A stretch of 30,531 bases of DNA from a virus, in the IMG/VR virus record IMGVR_UViG_3300040816_001098, positions 1 through 30,531 of that record. One strand, given 5' to 3'. Each line of letters opens with the position of its first letter. The first letter of the stretch is position 1. The position numbers and the translations under genes are program-made. Shown one piece after another: positions 8,984 to 30,531 of the stretch. The notes beneath the pieces are model-generated. The model worked only from the letters and a program-made list of their open reading frames with translations. It searched no databases and was not told the origin of the DNA.

Positions 8984-9028
8984 AGTGTAACATAATTAAT
9001 ATTAATATTGCAATACTTTTGTTACACT
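8984..9028 (-). promoter_or_regulatory. Late control element A (capsid operon): paired AGTGTAACA boxes
   Basis: AGTGTAACATAA (8984-8995) and its inverted partner TTTTGTTACACT (9017-9028) bracket a minus-strand promoter-like pair, TTGCAA (9013-9008), 18-base gap, TACACT (8989-8984). The 45-bp arrangement, including GCAATA before the second box, is repeated with the same spacing at 24959-25003. The predicted transcript has a leader of about 140 nt before the capsid start, in which I see no further clear element. Confidence 0.7.
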
Positions 9029-9057: not shown

Positions 9058-9085
9058 TTGACATCTAAACATCTATGTATATACT
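9058..9085 (+). promoter_or_regulatory. Tandem ACATCTA heptads overlapping a plus-strand promoter
   Basis: ACATCTA occurs at 9061-9067 and 9069-9075, an 8-bp period. The same bases form a plus-strand promoter: TTGACA (9058-9063), 16-base gap, TATACT (9080-9085). A transcript from it would meet the hairpin at 9145-9162. The block TTGACATCTAAACATCTAT is shared with the par cluster near 23154. Confidence 0.6.
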
Positions 9086-15111: not shown

Positions 15112-15161
15112 ATTATATATAGATGTCTAAATATATACACATCTAAAAAAGTGTAACATAA
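15112..15161 (-). promoter_or_regulatory. Upstream control site: ACATCTA pair and late box D
   Basis: TAGATGT (15120-15126) and ACATCTA (15139-15145) form an inverted pair just upstream of a minus-strand TATAAT (15117-15112) with no good -35. Next to them is a single AGTGTAACATAA box (15150-15161), the same sequence as one arm of late elements A and B. This is the only place where the two motif families adjoin. Confidence 0.6.
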
Positions 15162-15431: not shown

Positions 15432-15470
15432 TTGACGTGCAAAAGTGCACATGTTATATTATACACATGT
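15432..15470 (+). promoter_or_regulatory. Early/lysogenic promoter with overlapping palindromes
   Basis: TTGACG (15432-15437), 17-base gap, TATATT (15455-15460) make a strong plus-strand promoter for the early operon. The spacer contains the dyad GTGCA-AAAG-TGCAC (15437-15450), and CACATGT occurs at 15448-15454 and again at 15464-15470 on either side of the -10. These are likely repressor sites; the XRE protein at 19367 is the obvious candidate ligand. Confidence 0.8.
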
Positions 15471-15488: not shown

Positions 15489-15526
15489 GTTTTAAAGCAA
15501 CTAAATAAACGAAAGAATGAAACGAT
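15489..15526 (+). repeat. Early leader repeat, copy 1
   Basis: GTTTTAAAGCAA (15489-15500) and AAGAATGAAACGAT (15513-15526), the latter reaching into the start codon of the 15525 gene. Both blocks are perfectly complementary to the predicted RNA at 23351-23427. Confidence 0.6.
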
Positions 15527-16441: not shown

Positions 16442-16475
16442 TTTTAAAGCAATGAAATTAAGGAAACGAAACGAT
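16442..16475 (+). repeat. Early leader repeat, copy 2 (before ERF gene)
   Basis: TTTTAAAGCAATGA (16442-16455), then TTAAGG (the ribosome site) and GAAACGAT (16468-16475) reaching the start codon. The first ATG opens a 12-codon frame that overlaps the ERF start out of frame. It is complementary to the RNA at 23351-23427 over both blocks. Confidence 0.6.
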
Positions 16476-17208: not shown

Positions 17209-17700
17209 ATGGCACATAATGCAGTAGAACTACAAAAACAATATAATTTAACTACTGATAATAGTTTATTATTAAACAGGTTATTTTATAATAATGTTAT
17301 TGCACATGGTATTAGAGTTAATTTTATAGCAATAGATGATGAAACTACTTTATTACACAATGCAGAATATTTAAAAAAGGACACTCGCAAGTCATTAAAA
17401 AAGGATTTAAAAAACTTAATTAATTTACTAAAGGCATTCCATACGCCCCCTACTGATATTGAACAGCTAAACAGTTTTATACAATCTGATGAAGTTGTTG
17501 TAACTAATACTTACAGAAATATTGTAAATGGAGCTTATAAAGCCCTAGTAGATGAAAATAATACATATGTAGAGTTTAAATACTATAAAGAGCCAGTAAT
17601 TAGAATTTACAACGTATTAAATAAAAACATGTTTAAGAGCTATCATATAGAACAACGTTTGCAAGAGGCACACGACGCTATAAAAAGCAATTTAATTTAG
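17209..17700 (+). CDS. Unknown protein between ERF and replication genes
   Basis: A 163-residue soluble protein that starts three bases after the ERF stop with GAGGG upstream, so it is probably co-translated. The sequence is mixed alpha/beta with a basic helical centre (LKKDTRKSLKKDLKNLINLL) and a beta-rich stretch (NTYVEFKYYKEPVIRIYNVL). No Cys, membrane segment or catalytic motif. Its place suggests a DNA replication or recombination accessory role, without direct support. Confidence 0.6.
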   Translation: MAHNAVELQKQYNLTTDNSLLLNRLFYNNVIAHGIRVNFIAIDDETTLLHNAEYLKKDTRKSLKKDLKNLINLLKAFHTPPTDIEQLNSFIQSDEVVVTNTYRNIVNGAYKALVDENNTYVEFKYYKEPVIRIYNVLNKNMFKSYHIEQRLQEAHDAIKSNLI

Positions 17701-17711
17701 TTTTAAAGCAA
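17700..17711 (+). repeat. Early leader repeat, copy 6 (before replication gene)
   Basis: GTTTTAAAGCAA, the first block of the leader repeat, overlaps the stop codon of the upstream gene and is followed by AAAAAGGA. The second block is absent. The gene start is at 17731. Confidence 0.5.
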
Positions 17712-19330: not shown

Positions 19331-19345
19331 TTTAAAGCAATGATT
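19331..19345 (+). repeat. Early leader repeat, copy 3 (before repressor)
   Basis: TTTAAAGCAATGATT, followed by AAAGGAAACGAAC and the true start at 19367. The ATG within the repeat is in frame with the repressor, so an N-terminally extended form of nine residues could be made. Confidence 0.6.
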
Positions 19346-19809: not shown

Positions 19810-19822
19810 TTAAAGCAATGAT
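19810..19822 (+). repeat. Early leader repeat, copy 4
   Basis: TTAAAGCAATGAT, followed by AAAGGAACGAAAC. Its ATG opens a nine-codon frame (MIQKKERN) that ends one base before the start of the 19846 gene. Confidence 0.55.
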
Positions 19823-20046: not shown

Positions 20047-20060
20047 TTAAAGCAATGATT
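20047..20060 (+). repeat. Early leader repeat, copy 5; its ATG is a gene start
   Basis: TTAAAGCAATGATT, with AAAGGG just before. Here the ATG of the repeat is the start codon of the 20055 gene, so an antisense RNA pairing with it would cover the start directly. Confidence 0.55.
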
Positions 20061-21391: not shown

Positions 21392-21460
21392 GTTTTTGTT
21401 ACACTCAAGCCACTCTAGGATTTACGGGCTGTTTAAGTGTAACAAAAACGTGTAACAAAA
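21392..21460. promoter_or_regulatory. Candidate res site: 14-bp inverted repeat plus third box (site C)
   Basis: GTTTTTGTTACACT (21392-21405) and AGTGTAACAAAAAC (21436-21449) are a perfect 14-bp inverted repeat 30 bases apart, and a third box, CGTGTAACAAAA, follows at 21449-21460. They lie directly in front of the resolvase gene, where resolvases keep their recombination and autoregulation sites. The 12-base core is the same as in late elements A, B and D. Confidence 0.65.
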
Positions 21461-22458: not shown

Positions 22459-23091
22459 CTATTTACCTTTATTTTGTAATATTCTAATAATGTTATTTGT
22501 AATTTCTTTAAACTCTATTGAGTTCTCATGCTTAGCATCATATTCACTAATACCCTTGCACTCATAAGCCGAGTATTGCATTTTTACAGTTGACTTAATA
22601 GTTCCTAGAACCCTACCATATCTTGCTAAAACATCTTTACCTTTTTCATACATTGTAGTGCCAACCTCTGCCCTACTAATAACAATACCAAAATCAACAC
22701 CTGCTTGCTCAATTAGATTTACAGTATTTGTAATAGTTGGTAAATCATTTCTTGTTGTTTGTAATGGAACTACAGCAAAATCACTATGCTTTAATAATTT
22801 AGCATGTGCATCAGCAATAATCGGAGGTGTATCAACTATTACATATTCACAACCGTTTTTCTTTAATGCTGTTAATGTTTCTTCTATTTTTTCTAGTGGA
22901 ATATACGAAGTATAAATATTGTTTTTCTCAAATTGCTCTTTTCTTTGAGAGCCCCAGTCAACTGTACTGCCTTGAGGGTCAACATCTAATAACACCGTAT
23001 TATTTTTTTGTGAGAACTCAACCGCTAAGTTAATAGCTGTTGTGCTCTTTCCTGAACCGCCTTTTTGCGATAAGATAAGTATAACTTTCAT
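22459..23091 (-). CDS. parA: ParA partition ATPase
   Basis: A 210-residue Walker-type ATPase that positions and segregates the plasmid form. The deviant Walker A is SQKGGSGKST near residue 9; LLDVDPQGS follows, and the Walker B is VIVDTPPI. AGGAG lies 11 bases before ATG 23091; an ATG at 23100 is only two bases from it, and earlier ones run into the repeat region, so I take 23091. The small size without an N-terminal HTH is type Ib, consistent with autorepression by the RHH partner rather than ParA. Confidence 0.92.
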   Translation of the reverse strand: MKVILILSQKGGSGKSTTAINLAVEFSQKNNTVLLDVDPQGSTVDWGSQRKEQFEKNNIYTSYIPLEKIEETLTALKKNGCEYVIVDTPPIIADAHAKLLKHSDFAVVPLQTTRNDLPTITNTVNLIEQAGVDFGIVISRAEVGTTMYEKGKDVLARYGRVLGTIKSTVKMQYSAYECKGISEYDAKHENSIEFKEITNNIIRILQNKGK

Positions 23092-23153
23092 TTTTATCAT
23101 TGCTCCTATATCTCTACATATAAATGTATTTATATTATTGTATTTATATATAT

Positions 23154-23330
23154 TGACATCTAAACATCTATATGTTTTTACATCACTATATGTGAAATAT
23201 ATTAACACCATAAAAAACAAACATCAAGATATTTTTAATTATAGATGCATAGATGTATTGACATCTAAACATAAAAAAGCATAGATGCAGTTGTCATAAA
23301 TAATATAAAGATATATTGACATCAAGATGT
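23154..23330. promoter_or_regulatory. par centromere/operator: cluster of ACATCTA heptads
   Basis: At least nine heptads in both orientations: ACATCTA at 23156, 23164 and 23261; TAGATGT at 23250; variants ACATCAC 23180, ACATCAA 23221 and 23319, TAGATGC 23242 and 23282, AAGATGT 23324. Adjacent copies keep an 8-bp period (23156/23164, 23242/23250). The cluster is AT-rich, upstream of parA, and contains the promoter of the RNA at 23351. Omega/ParG proteins bind comparable short repeats. Confidence 0.75.
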
Positions 23331-23344
23331 TTATACTATATGCT
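23316..23344 (+). promoter_or_regulatory. Plus-strand promoter of the candidate small RNA
   Basis: TTGACA (23316-23321), exactly 17 bases, TATGCT (23339-23344). Two opposed heptads, ACATCAA and AAGATGT, lie in its -35 and spacer, so the RHH protein could control it. Confidence 0.65.
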
Positions 23345-23350
23345 TATATA

Positions 23351-23427
23351 TGATTTGAGAGTAAATCGTTTCATTCTTAAATCATTGCTTTAAAACGGTG
23401 CGGTTACCTAGTAACCGTGCTTTTTTT
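23351..23427 (+). ncRNA. Candidate antisense small RNA against early-gene leaders
   Basis: About 77 nt from the predicted start near 23351 to the end of a strong terminator. No open frame of note on this strand. Bases 23365-23378 (ATCGTTTCATTCTT) and 23380-23396 (AATCATTGCTTTAAAAC) are reverse complements of the two blocks of the leader repeat that precedes the early genes at 15525, 16474, 19367, 19846, 20055 and, in part, 17731. It could pair with ribosome sites and start codons there. An alternative is that this is a leftover minus-strand copy of the leader. Confidence 0.6.
23398..23427 (+). terminator. Intrinsic terminator of the small RNA
   Basis: A ten-pair stem with two G-U pairs (23398-23407 with 23411-23420), loop CTA, then seven T (23421-23427). 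It also lies right after the stop of the DUF1064 gene on the other strand, where it could act weakly (GTTTT). Confidence 0.85.
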
Positions 23428-23815
23428 ATTTCTTAGAATAATAATGCTGTTCTGCACCATTCTCAAAAAATGTTACTTGTTTGCCGTAACGCTCAATAAA
23501 CAGTTTCATTTTAATTTTATAAACGTCTGTTTTAAAGCCTTTTACATCTTCGGCAATATATTCTTGCCTTTTATTATCATAATAGAAAAAATCAGTCTTA
23601 TAACTGCATTGTTGTAAGGTTCTTTCTGTAGTATGTACAGTATCAATCAATATAAAACTTTTTTGTAGCTCAAGCTCTTTAATTTCGCCTGCTTTTATTA
23701 AAGTTAATAAATCATAATATCTATTGCATTCTCTTATACTATCAAACTTGAAACCACCCGCCTCAATTTTAACGTTACCATATTTTGAGTTACTTTTCTT
23801 TTTTTGTCTATACAT
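23426..23815 (-). CDS. DUF1064 family nuclease-like protein
   Basis: A 129-residue protein of the DUF1064 type, a PD-(D/E)xK-like nuclease fold found in phages. Motifs in order: KYGNVKIEAGGFKFDSIRE with Glu29, then LKAGEIKELELQ-like (AGEIKELELQKSF), Asp75 in YKTDFFYYD, and the AEDVKGFKT signature with Asp90 and Lys92. The family is suspected to resolve branched DNA, which would suit packaging or recombination with ERF. It is its own unit: a terminator precedes it and two heptads overlap its start codon. Confidence 0.82.
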   Translation of the reverse strand: MYRQKKKSNSKYGNVKIEAGGFKFDSIRECNRYYDLLTLIKAGEIKELELQKSFILIDTVHTTERTLQQCSYKTDFFYYDNKRQEYIAEDVKGFKTDVYKIKMKLFIERYGKQVTFFENGAEQHYYSKK

Positions 23816-23826
23816 CTTTACATCTA
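23812..23826 (-). promoter_or_regulatory. Heptad pair across the DUF1064 start codon
   Basis: ACATCTT (23812-23818) and ACATCTA (23820-23826) keep the 8-bp period and cover ATG 23815. A bound RHH protein would block initiation of transcription or elongation here. Confidence 0.5.
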
Positions 23827-24958: not shown

Positions 24959-25003
24959 AGTGTAACATAATGTTTATATAAAAAGCAATAGTTTTGTTAC
25001 ACT
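24959..25003 (-). promoter_or_regulatory. Late control element B (lysis operon)
   Basis: AGTGTAACATAA (24959-24970) and TTTTGTTACACT (24992-25003), 45 bp overall as in element A. GCAATA is conserved in the same place, while the 13 bases between are not. Minus-strand TTGCTT (24988-24983), 18 bases, TACACT (24964-24959). Predicted leader about 45 nt to ATG 24908. Confidence 0.7.
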
Positions 25004-28306: not shown

Positions 28307-30531
28307 CTAATCATTAGTAAGTGTTTTCAGTTCATTATTTGCTTGTTTTGCAACTTCTGTCATTTGCAACGCAAGGTCTTTAATTTGCTGTTTTTTAGCC
28401 TCCATTAATAAGTTGCTATCTTGTACTTGCTCAATCTCTCTATTTAGGTCAGCAATATCTCGTCTTGCATCACTCATAAATTCATAAGCCTCAATAGCTA
28501 GTTTATTTTCTTCATAGTATTCTTGTGCTTTTTCAGGGTCTGTTTTTTCAAACTCTAAATATGATTTATACTTAGTGCTAATCCCTGTTTTTGAAATTGG
28601 GCTATTATCATAAAAATTCTTATAGAAACGTTTTACGCTTTCTGAATTATTACCCATAACCTCACGAGATACCCAACCCCTTAATAAAGGATAATCAGCC
28701 AACTCTTTCGGTCTTTCAACAATTTCATGCCCTTGTTCTTTTTTAATCTCTTTAATTAGAAAATCTGAGCCTTGCATACCATACATACCTAAGCCACCAA
28801 ACCAACCTCTAACACTATTATCAATAACCGCAGGCGATATATTAAACTGCTCGCCTAACATCTTAGATGTTTCGGTTGTGTATCTATTGCTTTGCAATTC
28901 TTTTTCTAAATCTGTTTTATGCTCTGAAACTATACTCCTTTCAGTAAAGAAATTATAATTTGTCATGCTTTCAATAGCGGGTTTCATTGCAGTAGGTAAT
29001 AAATTAGACAATCCTTGTACTGGTGCGGATGCATCAAGAATAGTCTTAGCTAACCCCTCAAAAGCCTGCTTATCATTAGTGTAAGTATATTCAATAAAAC
29101 GCTCTACTGCTGTACCGTATATTTGCCCAATAATAAAAGGCTTAGGAATAGCAACCCACTCATCGCCTGCTTTCATCATCCAAAATAAATCACGTCTCCA
29201 ACGTGGTATTTCAAGGTATTCTTTTGCAGTCTCTTCATCGTTAAAGTTATTTAAAGCAAATAAAATAGACGGTAGCGTGATAGATGCCGTTGCTTTTAAT
29301 GTGCTTTTAACTGGGTGGTTTTTAAATATTCTAATTGTCTTATCAACACCTTGTATTTGAGCGTTTAAAAACGCAACCCATGCATTAATTTCTTTAGTTT
29401 GCGAGCCACTTCTTGAAAAGTCCAAAGTACCCTCTCTTGATGCAAGCCCTGCCTCAAGGTCACTCATGCCTTTTATTTTAGCTTTTCTGTAAAGCCCTAG
29501 CCTTGTAGCCTCTTCTAGTGTTTCAGATGCTTTAGCTAGTGGTTTAATAGGGTTTAGCTTTTTCCATAATGGGATACTCTTAGGGTTTATTAATTCCCCA
29601 TAAGCTTTAATCAATCCCTTTTTATCTAAATTAACTAAACCTGAATATGCACCACCCGAGGCTAACCAGTCGTTGTACAGCTCTTTATTACCTGCCATAT
29701 CAGCTAAAGCCATAGGTGTATCAATAACAGGGTTAAAACCGTAATCACTTTGAACATAAGCAACAAATTGGTCTCTAACAAAGTTACGTGTCCAAAACTC
29801 AGGGGTTAAAGTAGCACCTGCTCTTAATGTAGATGCAGGGGTTGCAATAATTTTTGATAAAATACCCATTTGAGTATCAGTTAAACCAGTCATAGCATTA
29901 TGCAAAGGCTCAGATAATTTATAAAACTTTTTCTTACCGTTTTCATAAACTGTAATATGAGGTTCAGCAGGTTCAAACATATTTCTATTGTAAATATCTT
30001 GGTGTAAGCTTTCTACTCCCGCAGACATTGACGGCTTAATATCATTTAATACACTTAACCCCTCAGTATCTTTTATTAAGCTTTCTAGCTTTTTAAATGC
30101 TTTAGGTGCTTGCTCTTTTAATAATAGTGGGCTGTTAATATAACCGTCAATTAAGTTAGCTATAACCTCTCTATCATTTTGTAAATACTCCATGTGTTTT
30201 TTAGAAACACTATCAACATCAGCCTCTTGTTTTGTAGAAAGTCTATCAAGTGCAAATTGTTTTAATTCTGCTTTGATGTTTTCATCAGCTAACATATTAC
30301 CGCCAATATTAAACTCATAATCAAGCAAGTGCCCTACTTCATGTGATAATACACGCTCTGTAGCACCTAAACGCTTACGTACAGTTTTTTCACTCGGGCT
30401 ATAATGCCCTAGCACTAAACCTTTTTGCCCTGGTTTATTTAATGAGTCTTTAACTTCATACTTTGCACCTAAGTCTTTAATAGTATTTTCTAGCTTTTCT
30501 CTAAGTTTCTCATCATAAGATACTTTAATAT
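28307..30531 (-). CDS. Giant internal virion protein, C-terminal part; zincin motif and LPD38-like region
   Basis: Continues 1-2492; the whole is 1,529 residues. HEVGH (residues ~852-856, bases 30343-30329) is a zinc-peptidase HExxH, and REVIANLIDGY (Glu ~910) may give the third ligand. From ~1015 a region with TDTQMGILSKI, TLRAGATLTPEFWTRNFVRDQ fits the LPD38 (large polyvalent protein) family, known from phage polyvalent proteins delivered with DNA. The C-terminus is a coiled coil. Together with the position of T7 gp16, this suggests an ejected protein that may cut a host protein or the virion's own parts. Catalysis is not shown. Confidence 0.85.
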   Translation of the reverse strand, partial: IKVSYDEKLREKLENTIKDLGAKYEVKDSLNKPGQKGLVLGHYSPSEKTVRKRLGATERVLSHEVGHLLDYEFNIGGNMLADENIKAELKQFALDRLSTKQEADVDSVSKKHMEYLQNDREVIANLIDGYINSPLLLKEQAPKAFKKLESLIKDTEGLSVLNDIKPSMSAGVESLHQDIYNRNMFEPAEPHITVYENGKKKFYKLSEPLHNAMTGLTDTQMGILSKIIATPASTLRAGATLTPEFWTRNFVRDQFVAYVQSDYGFNPVIDTPMALADMAGNKELYNDWLASGGAYSGLVNLDKKGLIKAYGELINPKSIPLWKKLNPIKPLAKASETLEEATRLGLYRKAKIKGMSDLEAGLASREGTLDFSRSGSQTKEINAWVAFLNAQIQGVDKTIRIFKNHPVKSTLKATASITLPSILFALNNFNDEETAKEYLEIPRWRRDLFWMMKAGDEWVAIPKPFIIGQIYGTAVERFIEYTYTNDKQAFEGLAKTILDASAPVQGLSNLLPTAMKPAIESMTNYNFFTERSIVSEHKTDLEKELQSNRYTTETSKMLGEQFNISPAVIDNSVRGWFGGLGMYGMQGSDFLIKEIKKEQGHEIVERPKELADYPLLRGWVSREVMGNNSESVKRFYKNFYDNSPISKTGISTKYKSYLEFEKTDPEKAQEYYEENKLAIEAYEFMSDARRDIADLNREIEQVQDSNLLMEAKKQQIKDLALQMTEVAKQANNELKTLTND
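30405..30531. repeat. Assembly overlap, copy 2 (identical to 1-127)
   Basis: Same 127 bases as 1-127. Together they close the circle at 30,404 bp. Confidence 0.93.

Follow-up and report, generated by a model that had tools for sequence, protein, structure and literature searches.

How might a phage that lives as a plasmid hold a whole set of early genes in check, and could one short RNA do so? The question is raised by a plus-strand interval, 23316-23427, in virus record IMGVR_UViG_3300040816_001098, which was analysed over its whole length of 30,531 bases (hereafter the window; G+C 33%). The record begins and ends with the same 127 bases (1-127 = 30405-30531), so the genome is probably complete and circular at about 30.4 kb. 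Its terminase, portal, capsid and podovirus-type tail genes all lie on the minus strand, and the early block occupies the plus strand at 15.5-22.2 kb, encoding an ERF-type annealing protein, a RepO/DnaD-like replication protein, a Cro/CI-type HTH regulator and a resolvase. A ParA partition ATPase is encoded at 22.46-23.09 kb on the minus strand. Since ParA and the resolvase are present and no integrase was seen among the proteins scanned in the window, the gene content fits a phage maintained as a plasmid. For the HTH gene, similarity to regulators of Caulobacter and Agrobacterium phages hints at an alphaproteobacterial host.

A first-pass annotation had proposed that the interval encodes a trans-acting antisense RNA that targets the leaders of early genes. 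The promoter, TTGACA-17-TATGCT, and the ten-pair hairpin with seven T on which it built that proposal are both present, and the locus can be laid out as follows.

23316-23344, plus strand: sigma-70-type promoter of the RNA, TTGACA-17-TATGCT, whose spacer holds the palindrome ACATC-AA-GATGT (23319-23330).
23351-23427, plus strand: predicted small RNA of about 77 nt, its 5' end placed from the position of the -10 element.
23350-23385, plus strand: 5' hairpin of the predicted RNA, whose 3' arm carries the second antisense block, ATCGTTTCATTCTT (23365-23378).
23385-23396, plus strand: linker TTGCTTTAAAAC, the proposed seed, single-stranded in the fold; its complement is the commonest 9-mer of the leaders.
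23397-23427, plus strand: intrinsic terminator with a stem of 10-11 bp and T7.

The terminator hairpin spans 23397-23420, with a 3-nt loop, and the T7 run ends at 23427. By strict criteria, the window has no second strong promoter-terminator unit, and 60 local shuffles produced none. Both flanking genes are on the minus strand, and the plus-strand terminator has no plus-strand gene to end. The RNA is predicted to fold at -26 kcal/mol (z = -6.0 against dinucleotide shuffles), with the linker unpaired when the terminator is left out of the fold and mostly unpaired when it is included. The antisense core named earlier (23365-23378 and 23380-23396) is complementary to the leaders in both parts, but 23365-23378 is locked inside the stable 5' hairpin and is not free for first contact, which makes the linker the natural seed. 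No Rfam family matches the window at gathering thresholds, and a known Rfam element was thereby ruled out as the identity of the RNA.

The predicted targets of this RNA are the following leaders, six of them previously named and two added here.

15489-15526, plus strand: leader target 1, before g15525, complementary over 12 nt (15489-15500) and 14 nt (15513-15526).
16442-16475, plus strand: leader target 2, before the ERF-type recombinase gene, complementary over 14 nt (16442-16455) and the 8 nt GAAACGAT (16468-16475).
17700-17711, plus strand: leader target 3, before the RepO/DnaD-like replication gene, 12 nt exact.
19331-19345, plus strand: leader target 4, before the Cro/CI-type HTH regulator, 15 nt exact.
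19810-19822, plus strand: leader target 5, before g19846, 13 nt exact.
20047-20060, plus strand: leader target 6, before g20055, 14 nt exact, containing the start codon.
15322-15312, minus strand: candidate target 7, TAAAGCAATGA, before a 39-aa hydrophobic ORF (15289-15170); net binding -9.7 versus -3.4 +/- 1.7 for shuffled leaders.
23085-23110, minus strand: candidate weak target 8, the parA leader AGGAGCAATGATAAAAATG; net binding -11.0 versus -2.7 +/- 1.6 for shuffled leaders, with a weak linker seed.

Every match previously reported for the six leaders proved exact in position and length, and the list was incomplete by two likely targets, the 39-aa ORF and, more weakly, parA. The tagged 39-aa ORF, absent from the earlier annotation, is divergent from the early operon. 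The description of the matches as covering ribosome sites and start codons holds in part. Five of the six seed matches lie about 20-36 nt 5' of the start codon, immediately upstream of the Shine-Dalgarno sequence; the AUG falls within the seed match only at g20055, and also at the HTH gene if its start is 19340, while the extension blocks reach the starts of g15525 and ERF. The leaders themselves are weakly structured in predicted folds. Among the untagged early genes, g16231, g17209, g18617, g19060, g20423 and g20704 overlap or abut the gene upstream; the tag is also absent from three early genes that do have real gaps before them (g15750, g21085 and the resolvase gene).

Several controls bear on whether this complementarity exceeds expectation. 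On the plus strand, six early leaders hold seven stretches of at least 12 nt that match the reverse complement of the antisense segment, against a mean of 0.37 and a maximum of 5 in 2000 dinucleotide shuffles. Seven is also the highest count among the 10,160 overlapping 52-mers of the window, reached by no other, and the segment ranks first in a generic scan of terminator-upstream segments across the compared loci. Similarly, among the 9-mers in 38 gene leaders, the linker complement, TTAAAGCAA, occurs most often, and six of its nine other occurrences fall in leaders (P about 4e-8). The six best leader duplexes average -26.6 kcal/mol, compared with -16.6 +/- 1.2 kcal/mol for shuffled RNAs (minimum -21.1). 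When the RNA was cofolded with all 38 start regions, the best eight by net binding were ERF, g15525, parA, HTH, g19846, the 39-aa ORF, RepO and g20055, which places all six originally named leaders within the top eight. The ERF leader binds most strongly (-17.3 kcal/mol), and each of the eight binds far more strongly than shuffled versions of the same leader do on average; at g20055, one shuffled leader equalled the net binding of the real one.

The signals of the RNA gene, its fold, the matched tags with their placement and the predicted binding are thus computed properties of this DNA. The locus also has the attributes of a trans-encoded base-pairing bacterial sRNA, namely its own promoter and intrinsic terminator at a distance from the targets, and an accessible seed complementary to several mRNA initiation regions. 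Given the statistical controls and a fold that exposes the shared seed, the original idea of a trans-acting antisense RNA against the early leaders is the best explanation. The lowered translation, and the influence on copy number or the lysis/lysogeny balance, that the same annotation suggested are putative. We consider it probable that a free-standing antisense RNA acts in trans to repress translation of this replicon's early regulon, where transcription, binding in cells, sign and timing are all matters that we infer.

In the mechanism that we propose, the promoter-terminator gene at 23316-23427 would yield an RNA of about 77 nt in which the unpaired 12-nt linker, UUGCUUUAAAAC, joins the 5' hairpin to the terminator hairpin. 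The linker would pair first with the tag (G/U)UUUUAAAGCAA(UGA), situated just 5' of the Shine-Dalgarno sequence of six early genes 3-8 kb away. Strand exchange could then open the 5' hairpin as pairing advances into its 3' arm, and the extended duplex would cover ribosome-binding sites, most fully at ERF and g15525. The outcome would likely be coordinated translational repression, perhaps with mRNA decay, of the ERF recombinase, the replication protein, the HTH regulator and the small early proteins, and the untagged genes that overlap or abut an upstream gene could follow it through translational coupling. Judged from the predicted pairing, translational repression is the likeliest effect; this sign is not certain, because most seeds lie at the margin of the ribosome footprint, 20-36 nt 5' of the AUG. 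The RNA may serve as a brake in the plasmid state, providing copy control and immunity to a like genome, or as a shut-off of the early genes.

Repeats at the RNA promoter bear on these two purposes. ACATCTA iterons, often in tandem at 8-nt spacing, are densest upstream of parA (23156-23270) and recur at 9061-9075, 15120-15145 and 23812-23826, as well as at the RNA promoter (iteron range 23156-23330); pairs with at most 3 mismatches number 10, versus 2.3 expected. They are likely to be the sites of one plasmid-borne regulator. As for the protein that binds them, one guess is g22184, a small protein encoded beside ParA, for which a low-confidence model gives two C-terminal helices and Pfam gives only sub-threshold matches. 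Such sites would tie the RNA to partition and perhaps to the late genes, and their presence at both the partition region and the putative late regions is what leaves two purposes, a plasmid-state brake or an early-to-late shut-off.

A real RNA that pairs with the leaders might be made late and stop early translation at the switch to late expression, with no part in the plasmid state. The palindrome in its promoter spacer is of the ACATC iteron, which also occurs near the putative late promoter regions (9061-9075, 15120-15145) and before DUF1064, and T4 RegA provides a protein precedent for such a shut-off. However, the iterons are densest at parA (23156-23270), which suits plasmid-state control equally well, and we regard a purely early-to-late role as somewhat unlikely, although it is the strongest of the alternatives.

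Other repeated elements were noted in the intergenic regions. GTGTAACA motifs occur at 8985-9027, 15151, 21437-21450 and 24960-25002, before late genes and the resolvase gene, and several of them form facing pairs, AAGTGTAACA...TGTTACACTT; they are probably operators or activator sites. A probable early promoter, TTGACG-17-TATATT (15432-15460), overlaps the inverted repeat GTGCAAAAGTGCAC.

The shared tag could instead matter in its own right, as a translation-initiation or RNA-protein element, with minus strand 23399-23363 being just another copy of it (a leader that is now a relic, or one that serves a peptide of about 12 residues) and no working antisense RNA at all. Read on the minus strand, the segment is indeed one more direct copy of the leader family, and a RegA-like protein could read a tag repeated before early genes, much as RegA acts on mRNA initiation regions in T4 (PMC3014915). 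Yet no normal-sized gene begins there on the minus strand, parA lying some 270 nt further on with its own AGGAG; on the plus strand, a promoter and a strong terminator are correctly spaced, the terminator serves no other transcript, and what the fold leaves accessible is exactly the seed. These features make the reading improbable. The tag was also considered as a DNA operator and rejected, being non-palindromic and held in one orientation and position before genes.

Activation by the RNA, through pairing 5' of the Shine-Dalgarno sequence that stabilises the leaders or guides ribosomes, would agree with the upstream position of the seed match in five of six leaders; we hold it to be quite improbable, given that there is little inhibitory leader structure to relieve and that the predicted extension covers the initiation site at g15525 and ERF. 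Chance complementarity is scarcely credible even at a G+C of 33%, where other AT-rich loci reach up to six scattered 11-nt matches, as it is contradicted by the shuffle and whole-window controls and by the fact that the seven matches of 12 nt or longer share a strand and all fall in early leaders.

The preferred reading, a free-standing antisense repressor of the early regulon, was also considered against related genomes. DNA and protein searches, run over collections of phages, plasmids, viral contigs and sampled genomes, brought up no relative that shares this early module; scans with the ERF, ParA and TerL proteins gave no close relative of it, and HTH-locus and distant DNA searches likewise found none. 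Searching with the leader pattern gave a single hit (L004), inside an unrelated gene, and a second such search gave 52 contigs, none with repeated tags. With RepO, ERF and the RNA as queries, sampled Alphaproteobacteria and the order of G001 gave only weak matches to the RepO N-terminus. Structural relatives were reached through TerL at 54-64% identity, many of them in IMG/VR contigs. L170-L195 and L010 form a podovirus-like contig clade at this TerL identity to the window, with common structural genes, differing early regions and no ParA. Ten full records of structural relatives held no ParA, no matching early genes except for a 28% ERF match in L186, and no comparable arrangement of tags plus antisense segment.

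At its broadest, and tentatively, the proposal is that one phage RNA may be the master translational repressor of its own early regulon, with a matched tag in front of most early genes that are translated independently; it would be the RNA equivalent of T4 RegA and be transcribed under iterons shared with partition and late genes. If true, replication, recombination and a regulator of a phage or plasmid would come under a single post-transcriptional handle, immunity would be accounted for with no protein repressor, and genetic circuits would gain a compact, orthogonal pair of sRNA and tag.

The earlier statement that no phage-plasmid RNA of this design had been described goes too far, as c4 RNA of P1/P7 and VpdS of VP882 precede it; both are given as trans-acting antisense RNAs of plasmid-living phages in the cited sources (PMC12197685, PMC8546580). 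There, c4 RNA is described as about 77 nt long, pairing around ribosome-binding sites, setting immunity and blocking antirepressor (ant) synthesis (PMC12197685; PMC8546580 citing Citron and Schuster 1992). The candidate RNA resembles c4 in its length of about 77 nt, in acting as an antisense RNA in trans and in belonging to a phage kept as a plasmid. Unlike c4, which derives from a longer transcript by processing and represses ant, it carries a promoter and terminator of its own and has at least six target leaders. The P4 CI RNA is similar to the c4 antisense RNA; for membership in this c4/CI group, the candidate has no Rfam family match, and it lies 3-8 kb from its targets and is not processed from the leader of a repressed operon.

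VpdS is trans-encoded and, with Hfq, alters phage and host mRNA levels in the quorum-sensing lytic programme (PMC12197685). The candidate is likewise a trans-encoded sRNA of a plasmid phage, set apart by description: PMC12197685 describes no repeated matched tag over the phage's own early leaders, and the candidate RNA has one.

Among plasmids, pMV158 RNAII is a short structured RNA that lowers translation of the replication gene together with the repressor CopG (PMC4485353). The candidate shares with copy-control RNAs such as pMV158 RNAII and CopA a short structured form and a replication gene among the putative targets. Plasmid copy-control antisense RNAs are encoded opposite their own target; the gene for the candidate, in contrast, lies kilobases from its many leaders, at 23.35 kb with targets at 15.3-20.1 kb, and not on the strand opposite a target.

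T4 RegA is a repressor that acts at the initiation regions of about 30 mRNAs (PMC3014915). As with RegA, a single regulator would address the initiation regions of many early mRNAs; unlike that protein, it would act by base pairing, and the RNA gene holds no ORF of normal size. The pSM19035 protein Omega (RHH ParB) controls the promoters of partition and copy-control genes through tandem 7-bp iterons that overlap them (PMC9499535), and comparable iterons occur here at parA and the RNA promoter, although their sequence and spacing differ and g22184 is weakly supported as an RHH protein. Phage antisense RNAs covered in a review target mostly one phage gene or host genes, and the literature searched, which took in few subscription papers, holds no described case of one stand-alone RNA with a repeated leader tag. 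What looks new, beside these systems, is one RNA matched to a leader tag repeated across the early operon of its own genome.
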